Source: Crambe crambe (taxonomy: Eukaryota; Porifera; Demospongiae; Poecilosclerida; Crambeidae). Taken from it: a DNA stretch of 64,000 nt. The stretch lies in contig OZ004582.1 in NCBI GenBank assembly GCA_963924555.1, forward strand, positions 1,116,001 through 1,180,000, written 5' to 3'. A program made the position numbers and the translations under genes. Shown here in pieces: positions 5,717 through 57,726 of the stretch; position 1 is the first letter of the stretch; each line of letters begins with the position of its first letter. The notes beneath the pieces were generated by a model. It was given only the letters and a program-made list of their open reading frames with translations, did no database searches and had not been told where the DNA came from.

Positions 5717-8700
5717 TTAGGGAACGAAATTTTCAAGATGCTGGGGCCAGCGGACACGACGTCCTGAACGAGTGGAACGAAAAGGGCTGGTGGGTCCAGC
5801 AGATGGTGGGGAGAGATTGACTGGCTGTTGAGGGGAAACAGAGGACTGTTGTTCACTGGGGGGAGGAGTGGATTACTCGGTGTGGGCTGGCTTGAGCCAA
5901 AACGGTATCATGTTGACCATTAATGTCCACGACATAGTACTTGTTTGTTCGTTGGAGCACCTTGTATGGCCCGTTGTAAGGCTGCTGCAGTGGTATGCGA
6001 GTGGAATAAACACATGAGTACATGTAGACAGGGCTGGGCTGACATATGCTGGGCGCTGTGAAGTGCGAGAAGGTATGGCTTGCAACTGCTGCATTGCCGA
6101 TTCCAGCTGTGTGATGAAGCTGGAGGGGTCTTCTGGGTCTTTTGACGGAGTGAAGAACTCACCAGGGAGACGCAAACTGGTGCCATACACAAGCTCAGCA
6201 GCTGTGCAGTGGAGGTCTTCTTCCACTGCTGGGAGTTGGTGTTCAGGGCTGCCTTCAGCTGGCGATGAAATCGCTCAATCAAACCATTTGCAATTGGATG
6301 ATAGGCAGTGGTTCTGATTCGCTGGATGCCAAGGAGGCGTGTCAGCTGGTCCCAGAGGGCAGATTCAAACTGACGGCCACGATCAGTAGTCACCATAGAT
6401 GGGACGCCAAATCTAGAAATCCAACCACTCACGAAGGCATTGGCCACTATTTCAGCGGTGATGTCTGAGATTGGGATGACTTCTGGCCGACGAGTGAAGC
6501 GGTCGATGCGAAGCCTTTGGATGGTGGGAGAGGGCCAACAATGTCGATGTGGATGCGGTCGAAACGAGCAGTGGGGGTGAGAAAGGTGGAGAGAGGTGTG
6601 ACAGTGTGACACTGTACTTTGGACTTCTGACATTGAAGACAAGAACGAGTCCACTTGCGTGAATCAGCTTTGATGTTTGGCCACACATAGCGAGCTGTTA
6701 GGAGCCATTGTGTGGCACGGATCCCTGGATGAGAGAGGAAGTGGAGAGACTCAAAGACGGCATGGCGGAATTCTTTTGGGACAAGTGGGCGTGCGACTCC
6801 TGTTGAGGTGTCACATAAGATGGTTGAATCTGACATCGTCAGGGGGACGGCTTCAATCTTCAAGAAGATCGCAGGCAGATGATGTCATCATCTGTGTGCT
6901 GAGCTGCTGCCATGGCTCTGAAGTCGATCACAGGAGGAGAGCTGTCTAGGAGTGCATTGGTCTCAATCCTTGATAAGGTGTCAGCTGGGGTGTTGGCACT
7001 GCCCTTCACATGTCAAGTGAACTGGGTGATAAAGTCCAGGTGCCGTGCCTGACAAGGAGAATGCTTGTCTGAGCGAGTATGCAAGGCGTAAGTCAGAGGT
7101 TTATGATCTGTGAGCACGTGAAAGTGACGTCCTTCGATGAAGTATCGGAAGTGTTTCACGGCCAGATACACTGCGAGGAGTTCACAGTCGAAAGTGCTAT
7201 ACCTCATTTCGGCTGGCTTGAGGACCTTGGAGAAGTAAGCAATTGGATGCCAGTGACCGTCAATGAATTGCTGCAGAACAGCACCAACAGCAACGTCAGA
7301 AGCATCTGTCATGATGCAGGTGGGTGCATCCAGTTTGGGGTGTGTTAGAAGCGTAGCATCAGCAAGAGCATCCTTGGTCTTGTTGAATGCTGACACAGCC
7401 TCGTCTGTCCATGTAAGGGTTGTGGACTTGTCCTTGGGATGTGAGAGCAGTTGGTTGAGGGGTTGCATGATGGCTGCGCAGTCTGGCAGGAACTGGCGGT
7501 AGAAATTCACCAGACCAATGAATTGGCGAAGTTTTCGCTGGCTGAGGAAAGTTGCGGATAGCCTGGACATTGTTCTCCAGGGGCTGGATACCATCGCTGC
7601 TGACATGATGGCCAAGAAAATCAAGTGAGGGAACACCAAAGATGCACTTGGTTGGGTCGATGGAGAGACCATGGGTGGCCAAACGTTCCAGGACAAGACG
7701 TAAGTACCATGAAACGTTGAAATGACTGACCTGCATTCCTGAGGCCAAATGGCATCCGTAGGAATTCAAATAACCCAAAGGGAGTGATGACAGCAGTTTT
7801 TGGAATGTCGTCAGGCTCCACAGGGATCTGGTGATATGCACGCACAAGGTCAATCTTGCTGAAGATTGTGGCACCATGAAGAGAGGCGGTGAAGTCCTGT
7901 ATGTGAGGGATAGGATAACGGTCAGGGATGGTGCAGTTATTGAGAGCACGATAGTCGCCACAGGGACGCCAGTCTCCTGGTGTTTTCTTTGGAACCATGT
8001 GCAGCAGAGATGCCCAGCAGCTTGAGGATGGACGGACTATACCCAGTTGGAGCATGTGCTCAAACTCACGCCGAGCTATCTTGAGACATTCTGGTGCAAG
8101 GCGATGAGCACGGGCAGACACAGGTGGTCTGGTGGTCCTGATGTGGTGGGTGACATTGTGCTGCACAGGGTGGTCTGTGATGTGTACTTGTGTGACTGAA
8201 GGAAAATCACGGAGTATGGCGGCAAACTTGTCATCCGTGTCTCGGGGACATAGGGTAGGTCTGAGAGGAGGGTCAAGGTAACAATGCCCTGAATGCGGAG
8301 GTGGGTGACACTATCCAGGAGCTGGTGGTTCTTGACGTCCACCAGTAGACTGAAGTGGTGCAGGAAGTCAGCACCGAGGATGGGTCTCCGAACATCAGCT
8401 ATGATGAAAGCCCAACAGAAAGTACGGCGGAGGCCGAGATTGAGTGAGAAACCGTGTGCCGAATGTAGGAATGGATGTGTTATTGACAGCTTCAAGACGA
8501 AGACTGTGCTGGTGTTTACGATCAGTGCGTGAGGGGGGGACGACACTAACATCAGCACCTGTGTCAACGAGAAAACGTAGGCCAGATATGCGATCAGGAG
8601 AGGGAGAGGAGCGAGGTGTAGGAGAATGTCGAATGGGAGTGCGGGGTCTTTTTTTAAGAGACAAGGATTTTACCACTTCCTGGAGACGAGTGACCTCAGC

Positions 8701-23879: not shown

Positions 23880-24738
23880 AAAATGAAATATGACTTGCCC
23901 AGATGGCTAGAAGTGCACACAGCAAATGATTCCAAGTGAGCACACTACTGAGGGACATGCCTATAGCCTAGTGAAAACTTTAAGTTTGGATTTCAGGTTG
24001 ACAACCCTAACTTTGTTAAGCTGAAGCTGTAAGATACCTTGTATGTTTTGCTTTTTATCTTGTAACGTGAGAAAGGATCAAAAACACTATAAAGTTAGGT
24101 ACCTCACTTATTGATATCGTGTAATGGATGTATCAAAAAATCTGGGTGTGGCCTGTGATTAGCAGTGTTCTTGCACTCATGATGGCCAGCACTGTCGCGA
24201 AAAAGTGACACTCCATTGCTGGCCCCCCTCCCTACCACCCTCACACCCAGATCCTTGGAAATAAAAAGTAACTGCATGGCTGTGTGTGTTCCCCTTAGAC
24301 AGGTCTGGAGCGTAGGAAAACTGAAAAGTAATTTGTTTTTTGGTGCTGGTGGAACTTAAGGCAGATGTGTAGTCCCTTTTACGCTGGCACGGGTTAGGAT
24401 GTAACAAAATATTAACTGCATGGCTTATGCATAGTAGGGTCACGTTAAAATAGGAAATAAAGCACGTTATGTGTGCTCCTAACCAAGTTTGGGCCATAAC
24501 AAATAACTAAGATAATGACTGTCAAGAGTAAGAGACAATACAGGTAAGAAACTAACTGCATGTGTGTGCATTCCCTAAACACTTGGTCAGAGTGAAGTAT
24601 CAAAGAAAAAAGTTAACTGTTTTTTGTGTTTTTATGTGGAATTTAAAATTAAGGCATAAAATGTACATTTCCTAGCTGTGCCAGTGTATTAAGGGGTTAA
24701 AAGAAAAAAATGCAGGGTATGTGCATAGCTGAGAAGCC
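23880..24738. other. No firm gene; loose repeated phrase
   Basis: The phrase TAACTGCATGGCT or AACTGCATGTGTGTG followed by TTCCCTTAGAC/TTCCCTAAACA recurs about every 150-200 bp (24,270, 24,415, 24,548). This suggests a decayed tandem repeat of about 150-280 bp. No protein was recognised. Confidence 0.4.
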
Positions 24739-24769
24739 TCAGCGTAAAATTAAAGGTAACAATGATGTG

Positions 24770-25350
24770 TGTGCTCCTCCAGACCTAGAACAAAAATAAG
24801 TAAAGAAACTGAAGTCCAGACTGTGATTGCAACAACTCGTACTCAGTGCTCCTCGTTTGGACATGACCTGCTGTTCTTCCCTACAGGTACCACAGTGTCT
24901 GCTCTTCTTCGCTGGGGGAGGAGCTACAACATCCTCCTCATGCGTACCTTCGGCAACTGGGGTACCACCTCTACTTCCTGGCTTTGGTACAGAAAGTCTG
25001 GGGCAGCAATCTTCCTCAGGACATAACTCTCTGATCTGGGTCAAAAAGATACCACTGTCGCTCTGCAGAAAGACCCTTTGGCTGCACTCGCTCAGGATAT
25101 TCACTGGGATCTCTTCAATAGGGTGAACTTCACCTCCTCCTCATCCGAATGTGTCTTCACGTACACCACTGATGCTAAACTCTCCTTCACTCTATCCACT
25201 GCCTCATCCTTTAACATATCCATGAGACCATTGATGTTGACTGAGTTGTCTTTGAGATCTTCCAGCTCTTTAATGTCCCATGCCAATTTGAACAGAGTCT
25301 TTCCCACATCCTGTTTGTTGGAATATTCATCATTAGATTTCTGCAATACT
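24770..25350 (-). CDS. Hypothetical exon pair, unrecognised
   Basis: After a pyrimidine-rich acceptor (TTTTTGTAG) the minus frame reads KSNDEYSNKQDVGKTLFKLA and ESLASVVYVKTHSDEE. A second frame continues VHPIEEIPVNILSECSQRVF, GIFLTQIRELCPEEDCC and APPPAKKSRHCGTCR. The shift between frames near 25,130 looks like a lesion. The acidic, coiled N-terminal part and the later Cys and basic cluster look like a real protein, but I recognise no family. Confidence 0.35.
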
Positions 25351-25490
25351 ACAAAAACAATCAAAAACAAGGAAGATAAAATCAAAAAATAAATAAAATA
25401 ACGAAACAAATCTGATTAAAGAGTTCCACCCACCAATAAAATGCTCAAGTTGTCAACTTGAAGTCAAGCATGGAGTTAAGCTAGGGCAGC

Positions 25491-26100
25491 ATGGAATCAG
25501 GAAAAGATCTTGTCCATTATAATATTATTGCAGAGTCAAAGCGCGAAGCGCTAGTAACTAAAATAACGAAGGCCAAGTTTTTTTACCCTTCATCAACTGA
25601 TTCTGCAAATATTGATGATGAGCTTTTGTTAGTTAGCTACAGCACAAGGTATTTTCGATTCATTGCTAACTGGCTTGCAGACACTAGTCTATTTCTGAAG
25701 AAGAATGCACTAAACTTGTAGGAATTGGAACTGATGGAGCATCAGCCAATCTTGCAGCAAATGGTTTGAAAGGAATGGTCGAGGAGAAGGTTAATTGGAT
25801 TTTTTGGATGTGGTGCCTGGCACATAGATTGGAATTGGCTGTAAAGGATGCTTTGAATGACATTGATGAGATGATGTTACGTTTGTACTACCTGTATTAA
25901 AACTCCCCGAAGAAGTGCAGAGAACTTGAAGATGTTATTTCAACTCTTCGTGAATGTGTAGAATTTGAATCAAGTGGAAAAAAACCTTTAAGAGCTAGTG
26001 GCACAAGGTGGAATACTCATAAGCTTCTTGCCATGAAACGAATCATTTCCAACTATGGTGCATATTGGGGGATTAATTCTCATAGCATTTTTTATGAAGG
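25491..26100 (+). pseudogene. hAT transposase fragment (ZNF862-like)
   Basis: The first frame reads LVHYNIIAESKREALVTKI. After a frameshift near 25,715 it gives LVGIGTDGASANLAANGLKG, then WMWCLAHRLELAVKDALND with DEMMLRLYYLY. After a TAA at 25,898 it continues KKCRELEDVISTLRECVEFE and RASGTRWNTHKLLAMKRI. The D in GTDGA and the C-x2-H region (WCLAHRLEL) are hAT catalytic-core landmarks. The N-terminal zinc finger and dimerisation tail are missing. Confidence 0.75.
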
Positions 26101-26529
26101 TACATACCTATGGAGTTAGAAAATACATGATAGCATCGCAGCTGTGGTAGCTTGTGGCTTTTATCGCTCATTTTGTAGCCCCAACCACTGTGAATTTATA
26201 TCATGCATGCAGACAATGTACAAGCAGACTTGTTAACATGCATGATGATGTCATTTCATGCATGATACAATCTTGTGGTCACCTAACCACACCCTTATGC
26301 CATGTGCTGACTCATCAAAAAAAGCACATGTCTATTTCTGGCTGGCTATTTACCTGGCAGTAGAACGAGGTAAGTAAAAGCTAGCTAGTTTTACACATAG
26401 CAGTCTCAAAGAATGATAGTAAAGCTTTCTGATTTCTGTCCTTCTAGGCATTTGCCAGCTACTTCTATTATATCAACTTTTTGTAAATTTCTGGTATATG
26501 TGTAACTGTAATAATAATCTTTCTATTAA

Positions 26530-27540
26530 TGGAAGATGCCAGGGATAGAAATGAAGAGTGCTGTATTATCTGCACACAACGAACTTCAGAAAAAGATAGC
26601 CACTTATATATCCTCAAACGTATGATTCGTGGCTAACCTTGCTTAAAGCTGCTGAAACGAGAAAATATGATCCAATTACAGATGCTGCAAAAGAGTTAGG
26701 AGAAAATGAGTTTCCTAAAATTTATTACCATCGCAAGTGTAGGAGTATTTTTACCATGAAGCGAGATTTGGAGACTATTCTGAAAAGAGAAGCTAATGAA
26801 AGTCTTGGTGATGAAGCTGTCTGCTCCTCAAAGCGGTTATGCAGGAGAGTATCAGAGTCAAGGGTATATGATCCTATCTGTATTTTTTGTGAGAAAGTCA
26901 AGTTTTTAAAGAGTTCTAAGTCACGTGAAAAGCTTAGAAAAGCTGTTGAGCTGTGTGCTGACCAAACCCTGAGAGAATGTGCAACTCAGAAAGGTGATAG
27001 AAAGATTCTGGCAATAACAAGTAGAGATATAGTTGCTGCTGAGGCCGACTATCACCTTTCTTGCTATAAAAATTACACAAGAGAAAAAAGAAAGGGTGTA
27101 AGAGTGAAGATGATGCATATCAAATGGTAGAAAGAGAAGCGTTTGCTGATCTTTTTGAGCTATCCGAACTGTTGTCATTCCAAGCAAAAAAATCGTGCCT
27201 GTCAGTTCTTTGACAACAAAATTGGAGTCATCAATGTTGTCTGGCGGAATCATTTCCATCCGTGATTCAACGCGGAAGCACATCCGTCGAAGACTAGAAT
27301 CAGAGCTGGCAAATTCAGTACAAATCTATCCTGATGACAAGGGAAAGTTACTGATGGTTCCAGACAGTGTGCAACTGCGTGATGCTGTTTTAGAAATTCA
27401 GAGTCTGCGTAAAGAACTTGGAATTTGGAAACCAAAGTAACTGATCTTATGAAAATTACAGATCAAGTGTCATCAGCAATCAGATCAGCTGTCAAAGAAG
27501 ACAAAGAGCCAACTCCTTCCCCATTCCACCCATCTAATCA
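26530..27540 (+). pseudogene. Cys-rich TE ORF, N-terminal half, frameshifted
   Basis: It starts near 26,545 with NEECCIICTQRTSEKDSHLY. A frameshift near 26,610 leads to LLKAAETRKYDPITDAAKEL, YYHRKCRSIF, then DPICIFCEKVKFLKSSKSR, and ITSRDIVAAEADYHLSCYKN. Another shift near 27,195 leads to VSSLTTKLESSM and RDSTRKHIRRRLESELANSV with DDKGKLLMVPDSV. Paired CxxC and HxxC motifs indicate zinc binding. The layout is the N-terminus of the same broad class of uncharacterised animal TE proteins as the gene at 19.7-22.1 kb. The downstream half is absent. Confidence 0.6.
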
Positions 27541-27549
27541 GAGAGTGCG

Positions 27550-27870
27550 GTAGAAGTAGGGATGGCAGGTCAAAGTCCATAGGACAGTATAAACTAAAAA
27601 CTCTTCTTTCTCTTCTACCCTTACTCTACAGATTCTCACAAGTCATGGCCCTATCCCTACATCTACACAGAAGACAGGACAATGTATAATAATCTAAAAT
27701 TCATTCTATAACATCAACAAAAAATAATTTCAAAAATTGACTTTTGTTCTAGTTTTTCAACATAATAATAATCAGATCGGCGTACTGACTAACTGGCTAT
27801 AGTTGTCACAATTATAACATGGCGATTAGATGGAGCGGTACTTAGAGGCTGATCTTTTGCTATTCGTTTT
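27550..27870 (+). repeat. Dispersed repeat, copy 2 (inverted relative to 12.5-12.9 kb)
   Basis: It carries CTACCCTTACTCTACAG, ATTGACTTTTGTTC, GACTAACTGGCTATAG and CTTAGAGGCTGATCTTTTGC, each the reverse complement of words in copy 1 and in the reverse order. Confidence 0.6.
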
Positions 27871-28289
27871 CACTAAGGTTATACTTCACAATTCAGTGGT
27901 ATAGTTACGTAGTATGCAATGCGCGCACGTGCTAGCTTCTTTTGAAATGCAGCTGCTTTTAAAGTGCAATCCTTCTATCTACCTCTGAATCATATAAATT
28001 AAGTAACAGTCACTCTTCTGAGACACAAGGTCAAGGTCTTCTGCTGTTTGTTCAACAAGGTATGTTATACTCACTCTTTCCTTTGTTTGACTCCTGAGTC
28101 CAGTGCTTCTTTTCATTTTATAATCAGCTGCTTGCAACTTTGGAACTGTTTCCTTACAATTCCAGTGCTCTGCAGCTATTTGTACAAAAAAATGTGTTCA
28201 GTGTCAACCATATTCACTCTTTCATAAGTGTTTCTTTCTCTGACTATGTAGCACTATCAGTTTGGAACTACTCCACTAATCTCAACCAG

Positions 28290-28852
28290 TGCCACCTCCA
28301 GCTGCACACCCCCTCCCAAAAGGTAAGCAACTAACTAGCTATACCTCCCTTTGCACACCCCCTCCCAGAAGGTAAGTAACTAAAGATAACAATTTCATTA
28401 CTCATACAATTGCATCATCCAGTGCCACCTCCAGCTGCGCGCCCCACCTCCCATTGCACACCCCCTCCCAGAAGGTAAGTAACTAAAGATAATTTCATTA
28501 CTCATACAATTACATCATCCAGTGCCACCTCCAGCTGTGTGCCCCCTCCCAGAAGGTAAAGAATTATACATAGATAACATATTTCATTACTCTTATATCC
28601 AGTGCCACCTCCAGCTGCGCACCCCCTCCCAGAAGGTAAGCAACTATAGATAACATATTTCATTACTCTTACAATTACGTCATCCAGTACCACCTACTGC
28701 ACGCCCCCTCGGTCTCCCAGAAGGTAAGCAACTATAAATAAAACATTTCATGATCTTACGATTACATCATCCAGTGCCACCTCCAGCTGCGCACCCCCTC
28801 CCAGAAGGTAAGCAACTAACTATAGATAGCATCTTACAATTACTTCATCCAG
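28290..28852 (+). repeat. Tandem array of 33-nt micro-exon units with splice-like borders
   Basis: The unit is about 80-100 bp. Each exon-like core starts after a pyrimidine/AT-rich tract and CAG, reads TGCCACCTCCAGCTGCGCAC and then CCCCTCCCAGAAG, and is followed by GTAAGC or GTAAGT. Cores: 28,290-28,322 (33 nt), 28,423-28,474 (52), 28,523-28,555 (33), 28,603-28,635 (33), 28,688-28,723 (36) and 28,775-28,807 (33). A truncated unit without its own acceptor lies at about 28,344-28,372. The spacers also repeat (ATTTCATTACTC, ACAATTACATCATCCAG). Confidence 0.85.
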
Positions 28853-29524
28853 TGCCACTTCCAACTGCACACCCTCACCCAGGGTGGAGGGCTAGGGCCA
28901 GGGCCAGGCGCAGAGGGAGGGGTGTTCGATTCTGCCTGTTCCCATGTGAGTACATACTTAACCATTTTCCACCAACACATTATATAACATGTATCACCAT
29001 AATCTTTAATTCCAGACCCTAATATGTATCGAGGAAACTGTAAGTAATATAAAACATTACAAAATCACTTAGCTATATATAAACTGGAAGCATTCACTTG
29101 CCTTCTTTATGCCCCCAAGTTGTCATCAACTAGAATCAATGAACTTAGGTATCATCTCAAGAAAGGGGAAATCGAGAGTCATCAGCTTCCACCATGCAAG
29201 GACTGCCTAGTACAGCATACCCTAAGAGCGAACTATCAGGCCGAAATTTGGCAAAGATGTCTACAGCAGGATCCACAAGTGCCAAGTCCTATTGGTAGAG
29301 GGTGGAAGTTGGAGAAGCAGGAACAGCTCGTTATCAACTGGATGGAAGGCCAACCAGCACCTCAAGCCATTCTAGACTTGCTTGCTTGCAATCGTGCAAG
29401 GAAGTGAGCTACCCAAGTGTGAGTGTATGGCAAATGAGCTCAAGTGTACTGATATGTGCAGACTACCAGACTGTGACAACCAGCCAAACCAACAAGAGAG
29501 TGAAGATGACGATTATTAACCATT
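28290..29524 (+). CDS. Spliced gene: Pro-rich micro-exon repeat plus CXC-domain C-terminus
   Basis: If each core is spliced with 33- or 36-nt exons, phase is kept and the product contains 11-residue repeats VPPPAAHPLPE. The 93-nt exon 28,853-28,945 adds an Arg-rich stretch (GWRARARARRRGRG). A 24-nt exon follows (29,016-29,039), then the terminal exon from 29,120: LKKGEIESHQLPPCKDCLVQ, HTLRANYQAEIWQRC, NWMEGQPAPQAILDLLAC. All borders are GT-AG and all three junction phases agree. In the last exon a 2-nt loss near 29,405 shifts into ELPKCECMANELKCTDMC, a tesmin/TSO1-like CXC motif. The C-terminal layout resembles TE-derived animal proteins. The start codon and 5' exon are not identified. Confidence 0.5.
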
Positions 29525-30214
29525 AGATTGCCGATTTGTTGTCATGAGTAGTTGAATACTACAGAGTTATCTCTAATCTTAAGATAAATCAAATTTCCAC
29601 CTATACCCATTGAAACTATATGCACTATACTGGAAATTTGTGGTTGGGATTGATATATTTTTTCATTATTTACTGAAAGCTACCACTATTTCAATGCTAT
29701 CATGCATTTTTAATATATATATGAGTACACATTCCCAAAAAGTACCATGAACCTTAATCCCCCCAAATGGTACCAACCGACCCCCCTGGCTCATGGACTA
29801 ATCCTGCTATAAAAGCTTCTGACAAAGCAAAACTTCGTGGTTATTACAATAAATGGACAAGAGCAAACGATCTACTTGGATGTGGTTTAATTCTATTGGA
29901 AGTGATGATGATGTCCAGTTCTATTGTAATGAAGTTCAGGCAACTAAGTTGCTGAAGGCACTTGGCTAACTGTTCGTGGTAATTCTATTGCTGGAACCTG
30001 GTTGGAACAGTATCAGCAAATTGTTAGTAAGCCAGGTTCATCTAGGCTTACAGGGTTTCATCTAGGAATTTCAATTTGGGGGGAAGCTCACTGGGCCGTA
30101 GGCCACGGCAAGGGGAGGGTGCGGGAGGTGCGAACAAAAATTTCACTTATAATTTTTTGGAGGAGGCTAATTCTCCACAAATTTCAATACTCTATTAGGG
30201 AAGGGATTAACTCA
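29525..30214. other. No firm gene
   Basis: AT-rich 3' flank of the CXC gene, followed by a 62-codon plus-strand ORF at 29,767 with no recognised family. I would not call it a gene. Confidence 0.4.
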
Positions 30215-30266
30215 AGAACCCGACCATTGATTTTTTTTTCAAAAGCAGTGATTTGGTTTTGAATAC

Positions 30267-30900
30267 CTAGCTCTTTTTGGTAGAGATCAGGACTGAACTG
30301 CTTTTGCCACAAATGCCACGGACAGGTTCCAAAGCAGAAAATCCTTGGACGCGTAAGGACACAGTGTTTGTACAAAATTCCTGTACAGTTGGGTTGTCAT
30401 TTTTCCCCCCAGCACTTCTGTTTCCCAAAAAGGATTCTAGTGGATCTTGACAAAATCTTTCAGATAGGATGTACTCAACCCCTGATTCTGATAACAAGCA
30501 TGGGACCATCTCCATAAAAGACAGAACTAAAAGTAATTTGGGGAATAGTGTGCTCTATTAACCATAGATATAATAATCCTTCCTACCATGCACAGAGTCC
30601 TCCTAATCTTGGAGATACTCAAGAAACCAACGTGCCACTACAGAAAGAGAATTGTGTCGTTAAAAAAGTTCTTGGTATTTAAAAGACAGGGGTCTCTATA
30701 AGGTCCGGCTTTCTCTTCTTGACACACTCGGAGATGCAACGGATGTTGAAACATCGAAAATCTGTCAAACACTTCGATGAAGTTTATTTCTCCATAGTGT
30801 CATCATCCCCATAATTTTCAAGGGCATGAGCAATAGATGAACTTAAAAACCTAAATATACACTTACTTTCATCCTTGAATAAATATGGTCCCTCTGTAAC
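30267..30900 (-). pseudogene. P-element-type (THAP9-like) transposase C-terminal fragment
   Basis: The minus strand has WFLEYLQD then EDSVHGRK near 30,600. Further on it reads VEYILSERFCQDPLESFLGN, KNDNPTVQEFCTNTVSLRVQ and ALEPVRGICGK. ERFxQDPLExFFG...NDNPT is the C-terminal signature of P-element superfamily transposases. Frames are broken, and the THAP domain and nuclease core are not found upstream. Confidence 0.6.
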
Positions 30901-31664
30901 TTAGGAACAAGGCTGAGTCCAGAAGCTGTCCTGTTCTGATTATAAAGAGTGACAAGATGATTCCATCCTTCTAACCATTTGGTTTATCCATTTTGAACAA
31001 TAGTCTTAATGTGTATGCATGCAGCGCTTCTTTTATATACCCATTTGGTTATCCATAACCTGTTTGATCTGTTTCTAGGAGGATGAAAAAAAATGAGGAA
31101 GAGGAAACAAGATATATGGTGCATTCATTCCCTCAGACGATACTTCTTTTTTTTTGTTTTCCCATCCTGTATTAAATCATGCTATTGCATGTAATGGCCA
31201 TTTTGAACTTTGATATGAATGTCTTTATTTTATTACATGGGATCTCTTTGGAGTCCCAAATTAAAACTTTGAGGAATGATGATTGCATATCATATGAAAG
31301 AGCATCAAAAGAACTTCAAGATGATACAGTGGCCCCTCCCTTATCCGGACTCCCCAGATGTGGACACCTCCCTCTACCGGGCACCAATTGTGAACTTTGA
31401 ACTTAAATTTATGATGACATCATGAATATTTTATAATAACATTGTGGGTGTAGTTTAAATTGCGCAAACGTGTGTGCTCACTTGTAGTTCCTTTTCAGCT
31501 GCAAAAAATGTCTAAAAGAAAGTGCAATGTTAGCATTTGAGTACTTGCTACAGGACTAGCCATCAATGTATATACTGATGTTTTATTGCATGACATACAT
31601 ACTTATAGCTATAATACTACTTTTATAATGTACATTAACAAGCCATGCCTCCCAAAAACCAAAC
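30901..31664. other. No gene; possible pogo-like transposon end
   Basis: CAGTGGCCCCTCCCTTATCC at 31,328 resembles pogo/Tigger termini (CAGT-NACCTC...ATCCG). No matching inverted end was identified within 2 kb. The rest is AT-rich and unassigned. Confidence 0.3.
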
Positions 31665-32010
31665 TTACCACTAATGACTTTGTACTCATTTCTTCATAAA
31701 ATCTGTGCTGGATGTTTCGCTTCACATGTCATCACCACTGAGTTTAAAGAATTCTAAATATTTGCATAGGACCCTGGAGATAAGAGTGATGTTTTTCTTC
31801 AGTTTTGCATCATCAACTAGTGTTGGTAGCAAAGACTTCGCCACAGACCGAAGTTTGCCGGACAAGCTGACAAAATCAACACGATTTTCAACGGCATATA
31901 GGTGGAAATAGTGGAGAGATTTGTTACGTCGGTCTAAACGCATGTGTCGTGTACAAACATTTTTGTCAATGTTGTCTCCACATTATCAGAATACTCGTCA
32001 TAAGCACTTC
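31665..32010 (-). pseudogene. DUF6589-type TE protein fragment
   Basis: The minus strand reads DNIDKNVCTRHMRLDRRNKS, LHYFHLYAVENRVDF, then LLPTLVDDAKLKKNITLISR and HVKRNIQHRFYEEMSTKSLV. The GDN-[IV]-DK...SLHYFHxYAVxDR and PHxYSxEMSxKS patterns are typical of DUF6589 proteins found in fungal and invertebrate mobile elements. The second part is in a shifted frame. Only this core is present. Confidence 0.6.
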
Positions 32011-33549
32011 TACCACAGCACCTGCAATAACACAACATAACATCAAGGGCTTATCAACTGCCAGAGGGCTTGTAACTCCCACATGGACTAGTATAGACAG
32101 TGACATTATGGCAACATTGATCCAGATACTTTTCACTTTCAGTAAATTGCAGTGAAACTATTGACTACATTTCGCTGTCTATATTAGTTGCAAGCCTGTC
32201 CCGGCCATGTTACAATTGTGACAACTATAGCCAATGAGTCAGTACGTCGGTAAATTTCATCATGTGTGACTTCTGCCTTATCTAATTATGACACGCGATG
32301 ATGCTTCGATCGATGTGCTACAATTAGAACTAACATCAGGGGAGAAACTACCAGCAGTCTTGGAAGTGTCAAGTTGGTTATACTTATGTTCCATCATAAA
32401 AGGGTAACATAGGCTCTTTCCAAAGCCATGCTACTTCCTTCATAAACTGCTCTCATCTACAGATGCTGCTCATCCTTCAAGGAGAGATCACTAAAGCCTA
32501 ACCTTCCAAGTCAAACTAGCACTGCTAGGAACACTAGACATTATCTATGACATTATGAATCAATGACATCATTTGTATTACGCATTTGTACGTAGAATGA
32601 ACTGAAGAATTATGGAAGAATACAAATTCAGATTTCCGTGAAAAACCTGAGCATGCGCAGTCAGTGTGTACCAGGCTCTCTTTCTAAGTTTCTTACTGAA
32701 TCCTATCAAGGTGCTACTAAAATAAATAAATGTTGCAAAATCCATTCTTTAAAACAGGGGCCAAGTAGGTGGTTGGTGTGACATAAAACTCTCCTAGGGA
32801 ATATGTGGGATCAACAGTTAAAATACCTTGCCCCTTTGCTAGAAACCAGTCCAGGTCCATATTTTTGGACTGTATCAGACCTGCTGCCCCACCGACTTCC
32901 TACATAGTACCTCCAGTGCCTAGGGTTTACACATTTTTGTTCTGTCACAGGCTGGTTACAAGTTGTAGATTTTCGCAAACTTGAGTATGCACAGTGCATC
33001 CACTGGATTTGAGAAGAAAGAACTTACCACGAAGTGTTTGCTAGTGTAAAACAAGGTGGCATCCGGCAGAACCAGTATTTCATTTTTGGTCCTCGTTTCA
33101 GCCCAACACACTTGATACGAGACCATGACAAACAATCGTCAGCTTTTGCTTGACAACATCCATGACTAACACCCAGGCATCGTTGGAGAAGTATGATGGA
33201 TGTCGACATTTTCATCCACAACAGCATCTGGGAGCTTTTCTGCCTTTCTTATTTCACTGAAAGAGAAAGGTATGTTGCAATTTTAAAAGAGTACTTCACT
33301 TCAGTTATGTTTATTCTTTCCACAGTTATGTTGTAATGGTTTGTTGGTGCCAAGGTCACAGCTACAGCACTGAACAACTCTGGTCACCTGATTGATAGAG
33401 TTTTGACTATTATTAAGGCCACCAATTTTGGTTTACCAGAACAGCTTTCTTGGTATAGGTAAACCAATCACAGTAAGGTCGAAGCCCTTAGGCCGGCCCC
33501 GTTTTCGCATCACTAGGGGAGTGTGATCGCTAAGGGGGGATATCAAAGC
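32011..33549. other. No firm gene; short dispersed-repeat copy at about 32,195-32,260
   Basis: CCATGTTACAATTGTGACAA and CTATAGCCAATGAGTC match the inverted repeat family at 12.6 and 27.8 kb. Minus-strand pieces at 32,811-33,227 hold a few protein-like runs (ENVDIHHTSPTMP) that I cannot assign. The remainder is unassigned AT-rich sequence. Confidence 0.35.
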
Positions 33550-33559
33550 TATGATGATT

Positions 33560-34040
33560 ATTCTACCATTGGTCGACACACATACTGCTTACCTGTGGCA
33601 GATTGACTTTGAGTTGACAGAGTATGAATCTGTGGTGTCAAGTCAGGATCTGGTGAACCATGGGCAGATGAATGATGAGAAGCTTGGGGTGATGAATCAC
33701 CTGAAGCTGGAAGTGACACACAGTGACCTCGAGGCACAGAACTATGACCTTTAAATGATTGACAACGACCTAAACCATGATCCCGAGTTGCTTGAATATT
33801 GAGTGAACTGGGACTATTATTGGAGATGGTAGGCTGTGACCCGATGACCTATACTGGTTGTGAGAAGACGGAGCAGTAGGCGCTGGATTTTGTTGACCCC
33901 AAGATGACTGAGCAGTAGGCACTGGACTGTGTTGACCTTGAGATGGCCGAGCAGTAGGCACTGGACTGTGTTGACCCTGGACTGTCAACTGCACGAGATT
34001 GACCCAGAGCTGACGGAGCAGTAGGCAATGGACTGGGATA
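33560..34040. repeat. GC-richer tandem repeat with both strands open
   Basis: The block GAGCAGTAGGC-CTGGA-T-TGTTGACC recurs near 33,870, 33,910, 33,952 and 34,017 at about 45-bp spacing. On the minus strand it encodes repeats of GQHSPVPTAxPS (33,994-33,850), a 15-residue period. A related, more diverged GATGA-CTG-A-G-T pattern precedes it at 33,650-33,760. Confidence 0.7.
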
Positions 34041-34555: not shown

Positions 34556-36690
34556 CTCCCCCCTTTTAAAGTTACTTTGTACCATAATAGTTAGGTCGTT
34601 TCCTGCTACGACGTGACCTTCGAACAGTGACTGGGGGTGGTGGTGGTGGTGGTAAATTAGGTACTGGTGGTGGCAGTTCTGCAGGTGGGATGAGTGGAGC
34701 TTCTGGTTCCAGGTCTGGGAAGAAAAGTGGATCAGCTGCATCAGCAACTTCGGGATCAAGTGTTTGTTCGGTGTCTCCAGATTGGGTCCTGTGACTTTGG
34801 TAACAGTTCCTGGCAACCACTTCGGTGGCGAATCTGTAAAGTTCTCTGCATAGATATGATCACCAACTTTGAAACTACGCAAAGGTCGGGTGTTATCATG
34901 ACCTTGCTTTTGTTTGGATTGTTGTGTCTGAACTTTCTGAGAGATTCCTGGATAGAGTAAATCCAATCTGGAATGTAATCTTCGTCCCATTAACAATTCT
35001 GCTGGTGACACACCTGTGACAGTATGAGGAGTAATCCGATAACTAAAAAGAAATTTAGATAATCTTTCTTGAATAGAAAATGGCTGGTGCCGACGAAATA
35101 CCAAATGGTAATCTGTTGTACTGAAAAAGGCCTTTGTGAGTGTTAATAACCAAATATTCCTTGAACGACTCGTCCACTGGCAATTGCAAATATGCATTAG
35201 ACATATCTAATTTGGTAAAACATTTACCACCTGCCAGAGCTGTGACCAAGTCATCAACTCGTGGAAGTGGGTAACATTCTGTAAGTAAGGCTTTGTTCGC
35301 TGTGAGTTTATAATCTCCACATAACCTTACAGTATTATTCTTTTTCATAACAGGCACCACAGGGGCAGCCCACTTGGAGAACTTTATGGGGAAAATAATT
35401 CCTAACTTTTCCAATCTCTGTAATTCTGTCTCTACCTTTTCCTTTAGAATGTAAGGTACAGTTCGGGGTTTGAAAAATTTCGGCTGTACTTTATCATCAA
35501 TTTGTAATTGTACAGCTGGACCATTCATACATCCCAATTCCTCAGAAAATACTATGGAATGCTTGTCTAGAATCCCTTCCAAAGGTGTTTGTTCTATAAG
35601 AATCCCTTCCAAAGGTGTTTGTTCTAGTACATTTGCATTAACAGAACCGAGGTCAACCTCCAGCTTTTGAAGTAAATCCCTGCCTAAAAGGTTAGGCCCA
35701 TCCCCTTCAACCACTTGTACATGTACATCTACCACCTGGGTACCATACCTAGCTTGTAGTGATGCACACCCAACGAGAATCGATTCACCAGTATAGGTCT
35801 TGAGTTTGACTGCAGGGCAGGAACAGCTTGGACCGAGACGGCAGCACCCGTATCCAATTCCACTTTAACAGGAACATTTTTGAGGGCAAGGTCCAGAGTA
35901 ATAGGATTACTATTTGTTTGTGCCTCCAGGTAATTTGAACGCTTCGAGTCAGATGAACCCTTAGCCCCTTGAGCTTTAGCTCTACAGACTCGTGCCAAGT
36001 GTCCCTTCTTTTTGCAATACAAACATTGGGTCTCTTTGAACTTGCATGCTGGGGCAAGGTGAGGGCCTCCACATCTATAACACACAATGTTACCAACTTT
36101 TGGCTTGACAGAGGCATCTCCAGCTGCATTCTTCCTTGGCTTACTTCCTCAAAAATTGTAGTGTATTCCTTGGCTTGTTTTCGGCGGGTTGGTGAGTTGG
36201 AGGTCCTTTGACTCCCGTTCTGCAGTTTCGATCGACTGGGCTAGAGTTAAAGCAGTCTCATACGTGAGATTCTTCTCTCCCAATAGCTTCCTCTGGATGC
36301 CTTCATGATTCACCCCGCAGACCAAGCGGTCTCGGAGCATCTCTTGTAAGGTCGTACCATAGGAGCAGTGTTCAGCGAGCTCCCGCAGTGCAGCAACATA
36401 AGTAGCTACAGATTCTCCTTGCTTTCGGACTCTCGTGTTAAATTTGTAGCGCTGCACGATAACAGAAGGCTTGGGCTTGTAGTAGTCGCCCACTAACTTC
36501 ACAAGGTCGTCGTACGAAGTAGTATCTTAGCAAAATGGACCGCTTCTTGGCTTCGGTTGTGACCTCATTCGCAAGAAAGTAGTAACGGAGACTTTCAACA
36601 TAGATCGTCCAGTCATCTTTCTTCGGTTCGAACTTTTCGAGCCTTCCATGCGTAGCCATCTTATGGTTATCTTTTTTACCTCGTCGCCAA
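34556..36690 (-). pseudogene. Deleted gag-pol of the young gypsy element
   Basis: Gag: KFEPKKDDWTIYVESLRYYF, a small deletion/frameshift at about 36,525, then VGDYYKPKPSVIVQRYKF. An in-frame TGA at about 36,150 precedes two CCHC knuckles (CYRCGGPHLAPAC, CLYCKKKGHLARVC). Protease: VELDTGAAVSV, then another frameshift. Reverse transcriptase: LCGDYKLTANK, FTKLDMSNAYLQLPVDE, LPFGISSAPAIF. At about 35,075 this is joined directly to SIQERLSKFLFSYRITPHTV of the integrase tail, so YxDD, RNase H and the DDE core are deleted. A 27-33-bp in-frame duplication (EQTPLEGIL twice) lies near 35,580. Confidence 0.9.
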
Positions 36691-43539: not shown

Positions 43540-44300
43540 GGAAGATTGGGAATGGGAACATCCTGGGTCAGTCCCAGGATACATGGAATACTTAGTATCT
43601 GGGGATTGTGGAGTCCCCACCATAGGGACTGTCACGGGATACCTAGGATACTTAGTATCTGGTGATTGTTGGGTCTCCACTATAGGGACATCCCTGGACA
43701 GTCCCGGGATACCCGGGATACTTAGTATCTGGGGATTGTGGAGTCCCCACCGGGATACCTAGGATACTTAGAGTGTCTGGGGATTATGGAGTCCCCACCA
43801 TAGGGACATCCTGGGACAGTCCTGGGATACCTGGGATACTTAGTATCTGGGGATTGTGGAGCCCCCACCATAGGGACATCCCGGGATACTTAGGATACTT
43901 ATAGTGTCTGGGGATTATGGAGTCCCCACCATAGGGACATCCCGTGACAGTCCCGGGATACCTGGGATACTTAGTATCTGGGGGATTGTGGAGCCCCCAC
44001 CATAGGGACATACTTATAGTGTCTGGGGATTATGGAGTCCCCACCATAGGGACATCCCGGGACAGTCCCGGGATACCTGGGATACGTAGTGTCTGGGGAT
44101 TATGGAGTCCCCACCATAGGGACATCCCGGGACAGTCCCGGGATACCTGGGGATTGTGGAGTCCACATCCTGGGACCAAGGAGGGGGATCTTGGGACAAT
44201 CCCAGGATACCAGAAGTAGAAGGGACCATCCTATGAGTGTCCTGTGATGCCTGGGACAGGATCTCAGGATCAGAATAATGCATCCCAGGATAAGATATGG
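43540..44300. repeat. GC-rich palindromic minisatellite, about ten units
   Basis: The unit is variable, about 60-95 bp. It contains GTCCCCACCATAGGGACATC, then CCGGGACAGTCCCGGGATAC and CTTAGTATCTGGGGATTGTG. GGGACATCCCGGGACAGTCC is largely self-complementary, so each unit can form hairpins. Open frames on both strands are by-products of the repeat. The last units decay into ATCCCAGGAT-ATGTGGCA. Confidence 0.9.
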
Positions 44301-46742: not shown

Positions 46743-47985
46743 ATCTGCTGGTCATGGATGGTATGAAGGTTTCAAATCTCGTCATCCAAATTTAACTCCC
46801 AACCCCTTTCGTATTGCAGAGCTTTGTGTTCAAATAAAGATGTCATTGATGATTTTTTTGGGTGGATTGTATGGTCGCCTAAATTTAATGTCTAAGTATA
46901 GGAATAGTTCATAAACCTGGAAAAGTTGTGGCCGAGTTGGGAAGGCGCAATGTTTAGAGCATTACAGCGGCAGAAAAGAGGAAAACCCACACTGCATGTG
47001 TTTCGGCATCAGGATTTGTTTTGCCACCCCTCATGATATTATACTCTTTATTCATGGTTTCAGACAATGGCTGGATCAATAAAAATATCTATCTAAAATG
47101 GTTTGATCATTTTCTCAAGTATTTACCACCAGCAAGGCCAGTCTTGTTAATACAAGATGGCCATTCTTCTCATGTATCTATCAAGTTGATTGAATTAGCC
47201 AAAGCAAATAATGTACATCTCCTTTGTCTCTCAGCACACACAACCCATTTGTTGCAGCCTCGTGTTCAAGTCTTTTTAGACTAATTTTTCTAAAGCCTGT
47301 CACCAGTACATGATGACGGACGTTGTGTTACTGCTGACAAATTAGCAATGTTGATTGGTGAAGTGTGGCCACAATCAATGACTCCATGAGTGGATTCGAC
47401 AGCTGGCACCTTCAAAAGTTATTGCTACAACTTCTAAACAGGACTCATCTGATCGATTGGCCTTTAGTCTGCAACAACAAGAATTATTCGAAAAACGGTT
47501 TGAAGAGGGCTACAACCTGATTACATGGCCTGGCTGCGTATAATCATCCTGATGCAGTTAGCAGTGCCCTGTGGATTCACATGGTTTCATCAATATCTTC
47601 AGAATCTTCTGTTTCATCATCTATTAATGATCTTTTGGTTATCAGAAGAGTCGATGAAAAAGCAATGAAATGGTATTAATAGTAAAACTATACTTGAATG
47701 ACAAACTTGATGATTTGAAGGAAAAGGAGAGAGAGAAGCAGATGGAACTTGAAGAAAAGGAGCAGAGAAAAGTCGAACGAGAGAGAAAACTAAAAGAGAG
47801 GGAAGAACATAAGGAAATGAAGTTAGAGAGAGAGGAGAAATAGAAAGAAAGAGAAAAAAGTCATCAATAAAACAATGGAACTTCTTGAGGACAATTATTC
47901 ATCAATTCCGATGACGAAGCAAAGTGTTCAATTTGTGGTCTTCAATTTTGTGATAGTGACGAGGTTTGGATTTGCTGTGATACCT
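46743..47985 (+). pseudogene. pogo/Tigger-like DDE transposase, frameshifted
   Basis: Plus strand: AGHGWYEGFKSRHPNLT; ALCSNKDVIDDFFG; a shifted frame ending in a core with NGWINKNIYLKWFDHFLKYL, RPVLLIQDGHSSHVSIKLIE and NNVHLLCLSAHTTHLLQP; then PSKVIATTSKQDSSDRLAFS; a Lys/Glu-rich coiled region (47,720-47,860); and finally CSICGLQFCDSDEVWICCDT, a PHD-like zinc tail. QDGHSSH carries the second catalytic aspartate of the DDE_1 superfamily. More than five frameshifts are present. Confidence 0.75.
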
Positions 47986-55569: not shown

Positions 55570-57071
55570 TTACATTTTTTTCACATGGTTTTCCAATTCA
55601 GGACCTGCAGCAATTCCTTGTAGGTATCCAAACATATACATCCTAATTTTTCGAAAATGTTTTTTAATGCTTTCCAATGACACTGAGTCAAGGCCATCCG
55701 GAACATTTTTTCTTAGCTTTTCGATAATTTCACAGTGAAACTTGGGCAGAAGCATGCAAATATGACTGACCTTGGTCATGTAGATAATGTTCAATCTTAG
55801 ATTTTTCTTCCTTGAAATCAGAATGGCTTGCAAGCTCTTTATCCAATTTCATATTCTTTGTATTTATCCCCCTTTCTTTGAGTACTTAAATTAGGCCTTT
55901 AGGTATACCAATGTTGAAAACAAGTTGCTGTACTTTACCGCATTATCAGCTGTTTTCCACCAGGTTTTGCGTTCATTTTATGTGCATTAAGAGCATTATT
56001 GGCATATGCAGAACTGTTGATCGAATATCCAAACCAATCGATACCCCTGTGAACGCTTCAGCAATCACAGCAGCATCTTTGATTTGAGTCATAAACTTTT
56101 CAGAATTCACTCCATACTCAAGGAATGCTTGTGCCCGGCGGTTAATAGAACGATTCTTTTTCACAGCTTCTCAGTTAATTGTAAATATCCACCATGTTCC
56201 TCAATAAAATCGGATACCGTAATTCCACTATCTCTACTTTTAGGCCTCAGAACTTGCATATCTTTTTCCCCCAAATGTTTTCTGATCATCATCAGCTTAA
56301 AATGTTGATTCATCATGAAAAATAACCATGGTTTTCTCAATTTGCTCATCAGTTAGAGGTTCAAGATCTGATGGTAGGCTCTCAGCAGCTTCAGGAGTGA
56401 TTGCATTATTCTTGTTTAGAAAACCAAGACCTACCATTTTTCTTAAAAATTTCCCCTGATATTCTGACCTTTCATGACCATCACAATAAGTGCCCTTTTT
56501 ATGATCAAGGATTCTGAAACCCAAGTGGCGCAACCATTTTCGGGCAGTTTCTGTACTAACTGTACAAGGATGTTTTCCCTTAAACAAACTTAGCCCTCCA
56601 ATCCCTGATTGTACGCTCACCTTTACCACGAACATCGCCAATCAATTGGGTAATAAAGTTCATTGTGTAGCAAATGCCACAGTACAACAGAAACAGACTG
56701 TAGTGTATCCCAATCTTGTGACTCAACCCAATCCTTAGCATACACAGAAGTTGCTTCATGTTCATCAAATTCTGAGTCGTCTTGTATTGATGAATTAGCT
56801 GATGATGAAGCATCATTTGGATCCACAGAAAAAGAGTCTCATGGACATCTAAAGCTGAAGAACTAGCAGTAGGTGCTTCAGTAGGGATGGTAAATGATGT
56901 AGCTGAAAAGGAATCCAGACTGTCAGTCTGGTGAGGGGTTCCATCAGAAATTGTACTTGATTCCAAAGACTGGTGCTTTTCTCTTTTAGCCTCTCTTACT
57001 TTAGCTCTTTGGAGGCATTCTTCAACACTGAATATACTATCTTTCAAGGTGGTCATACTCTCCTCCCTCAA
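55570..57071 (-). pseudogene. DDE transposase of the LPKFHCE (IS630/Tc1-related) type, frameshifted
   Basis: Minus-strand order: a basic N-terminal helix SVEECLQRAKVREAKREKHQ (57,020); a linker; the HTH-like RTIRDWRAKF; TVSTETARKWLRHLGFRILD, KKGTYCDGHERSEYQGKFLR and MVGLGFLNKNNA (56,560-56,420); IEKTMVIFHDESTF, carrying the first aspartate (56,300); SGITVSDFIEEHGGYLQLTE; a damaged middle; then CMLLPKFHCEI (carrying the catalytic glutamate region) and LDSVSLESIKKHFRKIRMYM. Stops and frameshifts are present. Such genes occur in fungi and invertebrates. Confidence 0.7.
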
Positions 57072-57726
57072 GACAACAAAACATCCTTCAGCTATAGGCT
57101 ACAAAGTATTCATTGCATAGATCCCCTTGTGTTGTCCGGAGGATTCTGACTGTCCGGGATCCTCCCCCTCGACACCAAGAGATATCAGTGTTGTTTGGAA
57201 GATCCTGACTGTCCTGGATCCTCCCATGGTGTCCCAGTTCATGGAGGGATATCAGTGTTGTTCAGACTGTCCGGGATCCTCCCATGGTGTCCCACCCACG
57301 TAGCAAACTTTAGACCAATACAATCAAATAAAGCACAAATTGTACTTGATTCCAAAGACTGGTGCTTTTCTCTTTTAGCCTCTCTTACTTTAGCTCTTTG
57401 GAGGCATTCTTCAACACTGAATATACTATCTTTCAAGGTGGTCATACTCTCCTCCCTCAAGACAACAAAACATCCTTCAGCTATAGGCTACAAAGTATTC
57501 ATTGCATAGATCCCCTTGTGTTGTCCGGAGGATTCTGACTGTCCGGGATCCTCCCCCTCGACACCAAGAGATATCAGTGTTGTTTGGAAGATCCTGACTG
57601 TCCTGGATCCTCCCATGGTGTCCCAGTTCATGGAGGGATATCAGTGTTGTTCAGACTGTCCGGGATCCTCCCATGGTGTCCCACCCACGTAGCAAACTTT
57701 AGACCAATACAATCAAATAAAGCACA
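56949..57726. repeat. Two perfect tandem copies of a 389-bp unit
   Basis: The unit starts TTGTACTTGATTCCAAAGAC and ends CAATCAAATAAAGCAC. Copies begin at 56,951 and 57,340 and appear identical. Each contains the first 40 codons of the LPKFHCE-type transposase plus upstream GACTGTCCGGGATCCTCCCA repeats, so the 5' end of the gene is duplicated. Confidence 0.9.

Follow-up and report, generated by a model that had tools for sequence, protein, structure and literature searches.

Tandem micro-exon arrays are known from a few gene families, and the array described here finds its closest precedents in two kinds of Schistosoma gene, SmPoMuc and MEG. In the polymorphic mucin SmPoMuc of Schistosoma mansoni, according to the sections of the source consulted, a single gene has up to 20 tandem copies of a 27-bp exon with the introns that flank it, the repeat number differs between genes, and the genes form a multigene family with frequent recombination, in which the intronic part of the repeat is more than 94% identical (PMC2576457). 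The MEG genes have many short exons, mostly multiples of three in length, that are gained and lost in frame; transposons are enriched in their neighbourhood, and one exon duplication is transposon-linked (excerpts of PMC10526429 and PMC8293314). Tandem exon amplification in piccolo b of teleosts changes exon number and content mostly in frame (PMC3484663), the same holds for exon change in duplicated human genes with variable internal repeats (PMC2812944), and gene fragments are reported to be carried, and alternatively spliced, within a CACTA transposon (PMC1947982), each as far as the consulted parts of these papers go.

The array considered here lies in a stretch of 64,000 nucleotides of the sponge Crambe crambe, called the window in what follows. 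We consider it likely that the array is part of a mobile, multi-exon micro-exon gene which changes in length unit by unit, and that the window copy is a decayed member of this family. As in SmPoMuc, a tiny (here predicted) exon is repeated in tandem with its introns, and the genes form a recombining multigene family. The units here measure about 80 bp, whereas those of SmPoMuc measure about 1 kb; the copies here are dispersed, whereas the SmPoMuc genes are clustered and, in the sections consulted, not described as part of a transposon; and SmPoMuc transcripts are proven (PMC2576457), those of the present family predicted. The MEG genes differ in their long introns (0.1-5 kb); their proteins carry a signal peptide, and they are reported, in the excerpts consulted, to lie near transposons rather than to be carried by them (PMC10526429, PMC8293314). 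For piccolo b and the human repeats, the consulted parts describe no array of ~80-bp exon-intron units in a dispersed element (PMC3484663, PMC2812944). The earlier note had called a length-polymorphic spliced repeat of 33-nt exons a rare architecture; it is indeed uncommon, but its kind was already known from the 27-bp SmPoMuc exon and its introns, repeated as described above (PMC2576457). What appears to be new is the mobile setting of the array: among the 8-12 best-ranked titles of each literature search, made over mostly open-access papers, no transposon-borne micro-exon array was seen.

The features of the locus, in window coordinates, are these:

27538..29081, + strand, 3'-truncated copy of a dispersed element, subfamily S1 (from a blastn comparison of the window with 20 fetched copies)
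27538..27553, + strand, left terminus; elsewhere a hairpin AGAGAGTGC-NNNN-GCACTCTCT, partly deleted in the window
28290..28322, + strand, core 1, 33 nt; its equivalent in subfamily S2 is continuous with an ATG exon
28343..28371, + strand, core 2, with a donor only; the acceptor is missing in the window copy
28423..28474, + strand, core 3, 52 nt; alters the frame and is present in 17 of 21 S1 loci, the window among them
28523..28555, + strand, core 4, 33 nt, donor GTAAA
28603..28635, + strand, core 5, 33 nt
28688..28723, + strand, core 6, 36 nt
28775..28807, + strand, core 7, 33 nt, VPPPAAHPLPE
28853..28945, + strand, exon A, 93 nt, opened by the next acceptor after the array; Pro and then Arg-rich (translations from other S1 copies)
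29016..29039, + strand, exon B, 24 nt, YPNMYRGN if joined in phase 1

Between 28290 and 28807, six cores bordered by AG and GT follow each other with lengths of 33, 52, 33, 33, 36 and 33 nt. This recount agrees exactly with the earlier note, which had seen at least six such cores, four of 33 nt, one of 36 nt and one of 52 nt; its translation VPPPAAHPLPE is likewise borne out, given joining in phase 1 (G|TG CCA...). The cores were defined by regular expressions, and a stricter donor rule, GT[AG]AG, misses the core at 28523 and shows five of the six. Comparison with the copy L011, where a seventh core (28343-28371 in the window) is complete, reveals that the window lacks part of the corresponding unit. 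The 52-nt core looks like two exons fused through loss of the intervening intron. The regular units are spaced 78-88 bp apart, and the array is recognised as a tandem repeat by two programs, with a Tandem Repeats Finder score of up to 437. That the array is a structured RNA or a tRNA was considered and rejected, with no Rfam match at the gathering threshold and no tRNA match.

The array belongs to a family with at least 59 scored places in the 143-Mb genome, a lower bound that derives from scoring 40 of 78 first-look candidates. The 26 longer matches, including the window, have at least 86% identity, and the remaining 33 rows, several of which are short pieces of a single array, have 68-90%. 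From the first group 20 loci (L009-L028) were fetched as a sample of subfamily S1, and from the second group 22 loci (L029-L050) as a sample of S2; their coordinates are given in gene orientation, so that minus-strand copies are the reverse of the stored locus. The S2 loci contain 2-16 cores each, with lengths of 33 nt in 135, 36 nt in 30 and 30 nt in 9 of the 185 cores, and per-locus totals shift somewhat between counting passes owing to filters. Multiples of three account for 175 of 185 S2 cores versus 26 of 139 introns, most of which (127/139) measure 61, 47, 54, 50 or 57 nt. In S1 the lengths of 94 of 113 cores are divisible by three, and the common 52-nt core accounts for 17 of the 19 that are not. 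Serial short exons, mostly multiples of three, are thus found here as in SmPoMuc and MEG, in counts taken over related copies that are not independent, L046 and L047 looking like one duplicated locus.

From exon lengths that are mostly multiples of three, together with a single intron phase, it would follow that the Pro-rich repeat changes in length in frame. Each unit of exon plus intron would double as a minisatellite unit, whole units being gained or lost by unequal exchange or slippage. That exon and flanking intron were amplified together, as the earlier note proposed, is supported in the family by the units of about 80 bp and by L029, where the repeat period is 174-177 bp and the units have therefore been amplified as dimers. 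The further proposal that copy number changes the length of a Pro-rich protein repeat has support at the level of the family, where unit number differs among the dispersed copies inside one genome.

The window copy itself is a different matter. Its homology to the other copies ends at 29081, corresponding to 5619 in L011, the right end of which lies at about 7157 (L011 in reversed orientation). The final ~1.5 kb is missing from the window, full-length copies such as L011 being about 3.2 kb, and the last exon (exon C) is absent. Inspection of the window and the S1 sequences showed no start codon in the VPPP frame of S1; a stop (TGA; TAA in the window) lies a few codons 5' of the first core, with no ATG in between. 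This early stop without an ATG, together with the 52-nt core and the loss of an acceptor and of exon C, makes it very probable that the window copy is not translated as VPPP repeats, and it is probably a dead, decayed member of its family. Truncation and the same defects also mean that unit number probably changes no protein at this locus, so that the proposal of the earlier note is not supported for the very copy on which it was made.

On either side of the insertion, at 26600-27440 and 29120-29520, the window has an older, decayed gene-like repeat into which the element inserted; a frame break follows its last exon, in which LPPCKDCLVQHTLRANYQAEIWQRC occurs. The exons of this older repeat do not accompany the array elsewhere. 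That the array is part of a flanking gene was rejected: window positions 24001-34000 match the 20 S1 loci only over ~27530-29081, and the flanking C-terminal exon recurs at 36 further places (best 82% and 66%), none of which overlaps an array place. Other features of the window are retrotransposon fragments with RNase H domains and a reverse transcriptase domain (7013-7765 and 35055-35864, both - strand), fragments matching hAT dimerisation, DDE_1 and TNP-like RNase H families (163-402, - strand; 46958-47284, + strand; 30267-30554, - strand), a 389-bp unit duplicated head to tail with 100% identity (56948-57726), and a complex tandem repeat with several overlapping periods (43558-44151).

What the array would be part of can be read from the fuller relatives. 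In S2 copies an ATG exon and the first unit form one uninterrupted stretch (CACTTCACC ATG CCA GTG), the ATG being present in 19 of the 20 loci aligned and replaced by ATA in L036; in L030 and L032 the start exon was not found. The predicted gene would begin with this MPVPP.. start exon, continue with a variable run of exons of mostly 33, 36 or 30 nt separated by short phase-1 introns, and end with the Arg-rich exon A, the 24-nt exon B and the last exon C, which reads LHFHYH.. to a stop. The array would accordingly form the middle of a small multi-exon gene, spread within a mobile, possibly Helitron-like repeat. When a gene parser was tried on 20 S2 loci, 18 matched the start pattern and 2 of these 18 were open from ATG to stop: L045, with a predicted product of 67 aa and 3 exons before exon B in a parse that skipped one further core located after a 33-nt gap, and L050, with a predicted product of 197 aa and 14 exons before exon B, which requires one intron of 2161 nt. 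In the remaining 16 copies the frame meets a stop or is shifted, the ATG is replaced by ATA, or the parse lacks exon B or C. The predicted product contains the peptide stretch ..FPYPNMYNGNLHFHYHGR, and its predicted N-terminus, MPVPP(P)AAHPLPE, has no hydrophobic stretch by eye. All its matches to Pfam are under the cut-off (best E 0.032), and those to PDB are weak (best E 0.045).

A third group, S3/S4, of which L051, L052, L056 and L057 are examples, was found at 18 places by a search with exon B. These copies retain exon B, exon C and an apparent 3'UTR intron, together with other Pro-rich micro-exons, and the leader is retained in L051 and L052. In L056 (1-640, S4) Pro-rich micro-exons of two types, one of them bearing long poly-C tracts, alternate by eye in a dimer-like manner. 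L053 and L055 had no match in the start search and no tandem repeat, and L054 entered only the start-search alignment.

It may be asked whether any of this is coding at all. The array could be a non-coding minisatellite, in which AG and GT stand by chance beside a Pro-rich open stretch, spread by a transposon and neither spliced nor translated. With such a minisatellite agree the S1 copies, where no start was seen in the VPPP frame and the 52-nt core is frequent, the broken state of 16 of the 18 S2 copies tested, and the lack of constraint in single copies: variable non-CpG sites are alike in exons and introns, both within S1 (5/134 versus 8/162) and within S2 (13/140 versus 14/165). From this equality follows that single copies decay freely, and that constraint can be visible only between subfamilies.

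Between subfamilies it shows in the two exons beyond the minisatellite, B and C. B|C reads YPNMYRGN|LHFHYHQK in S1 (L011) and YPNMYNGN|LHFHYHGR in S2 (L029). When S1 is compared with S2, exons B+C differ on average by 2.7, 3.0 and 11.3 nucleotides at codon positions 1, 2 and 3, as means over 19 x 14 related copies, the S1 set excluding L017 (no usable tail) and the S2 set excluding 8 of 22 loci without an intact last exon. In the predicted frame 8.25 codons differ synonymously versus 3.17 non-synonymously (means over the same pairs), while the two shifted frames give 0.07 versus 12.51 and 1.09 versus 11.56. With exon A included the differences by codon position are 8.6, 7.8 and 19.5, which by subtraction leaves for exon A alone a weaker bias of about 5.9/4.8/8.2. 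The LHFHYH exon with a preceding acceptor occurs at 59 genome places in several spellings, with 0 in the reversed control, for a search pattern that permits almost solely synonymous change. The third-position bias, the exon order conserved in S3/S4, and the lengths of exons rather than introns being mostly multiples of three, albeit in related copies that do not record independent events, all argue against a non-coding minisatellite, which we regard as unlikely.

The distribution of differences between exons and introns is not what plain purifying selection predicts, introns A-B and B-C being more alike than exons A to C. Between L011 and L029 these two introns differ by 5% and 4%, while exons A, B and C differ by 23%, 29% and 40%. 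For the intron leading into exon A the figure is 31%, and for the one preceding it 8%; the last two array exons differ by 18% and 6%, and the 3'UTR intron by 9%. Along the 3'UTR the difference is 10-16% in the first ~900 nt, 3-5% thereafter and 12% in the final 57 nt. CpG decay alone was rejected as the source of the exon divergence: majority differences between S1 and S2 at non-CpG sites number 31/130 in exons A-C versus 5/117 in introns A-B and B-C (13/43 in the intron before A).

One conceivable source of this pattern, beyond concerted evolution, is selection on the spliced RNA, for instance to escape small-RNA silencing, which would drive the synonymous divergence of exons B and C. The contrast of 29% and 40% in these exons with 5% and 4% in their introns is in line with such selection, and the close pair L028 and L011 points in the same direction, with 5/49 differences in exons B+C versus 1/129 in introns A-B and B-C. 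Exon B is, however, identical across the S3 and S4 copies read, and the exon-divergence effect is therefore not general. The 3'UTR, which would likewise be in the mRNA, diverges by 10-16% in its first part and less further on. Moreover, introns that are more homogenised than exons are described in SmPoMuc and spider silk and put down to concerted evolution (consulted parts of PMC2576457). We hold selection on spliced RNA to be very improbable; concerted evolution may be the source of the homogenised introns A-B and B-C here.

The ends of the element bear on the nature of its carrier. The left end, A|TCAGAGAGTGCGG, also given as A|TCAGAGAGTGCGGTAGCACTCTCT, is shared by the window and other copies: the rows listed for it come from the window, 14 of the 20 S1 loci and a single S2 locus. 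An A precedes the TC in 15 of these 16 left ends, and a T in L014, so that a 5' TC inserted after A, as in Helitrons, is the rule. A pattern for the left terminus (at most 2 mismatches) has 1875 matches in the genome (960+915) and 0 in the reversed control, and the spacing, among the matches listed, is often ~230 bp. The right end, ..TTTTTTGCACTTACTTGT, GCACTTACTTGT or shorter forms, was listed for 17 of 20 S1 loci and one S2 locus. In L011 (~6649-7157, reversed orientation) the right part reads by eye as a long palindrome with arms of ~250 bp.

With Helitron, Helitron2 and their non-autonomous derivatives, as described in the consulted parts of PMC4067079, the element shares the TC start after A, the terminal hairpin, tandem end copies, and the presence in the genome of Rep and helicase ORFs (67 Helitron_like_N and 60 PIF1 places). 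It differs in its right end, GCACTTACTTGT or shorter forms instead of the CTRR that canonical Helitrons have ~11 bp after a 3' hairpin, and in its own hairpin, which sits at the TC end. No target-site duplication was noticed by eye at the ends of the fetched copies. Palindromes at both ends are described for Helitron2 in the same source. Because of its right end and the position of its hairpin, the element is not assigned to the canonical Helitrons.

Upstream of two of the three Rep places on C1, and on their strand, left ends (among those listed) lie at distances of 4.0 and 4.1 kb; 3 of the 18 S3/S4 tails follow a Rep place of the same strand, at 7.7, 9.2 and 10.2 kb downstream. In 20,000 trials of random placement, with all 67 Rep places included, two tails within 10 kb were reached in 23 and three within 10.2 kb in 2, three within 15 kb in 4 and within 20 kb in 1, and, for any side or strand, three within 15 kb in 47, in a test whose limits were set after the pairs had been seen, with guessed lengths for C13, C15 and C17, for transposons that cluster, and with two of the three pairs so close together on C6 that they perhaps stem from one duplication. 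The carrier may be Helitron-like, these data being suggestive only. That a Helitron-like rolling-circle family carries a micro-exon accessory gene of its own, and that its transposition yields copies differing in exon number, and so length variants of a spliced Pro-rich and Arg-rich protein maintained by selection, we put forward tentatively, as an idea with less than even prospects.

A gene inside a mobile element may also have come from the host. It would then be a captured host gene, now a transposon passenger, with its function in an unsampled host copy and with the dispersed copies as pseudogenes. In its favour, Helitrons are reported to take up host DNA, and the majority of the tested S2 copies are broken. 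Nevertheless, the genome match lists, of which a minority of places was read, contain no recognised single-copy, non-mobile homologue, and several subfamilies have diverged while the encoded C-terminus was kept, which implies more than one functioning lineage. Capture of a host gene is in our judgement rather unlikely, though less so than a non-coding minisatellite.

If the array is part of a mobile micro-exon gene, as we favour, then it would be possible to count, within one genome, how units come and go, how exons of 33 nt are spliced between introns of ~50 nt and what becomes of the reading frame; the 22 S2 loci fetched offer 2-16 cores each. If, in addition, the carrier is a Helitron, its accessory gene would be of a type not encountered in those parts of the literature with which it was compared.
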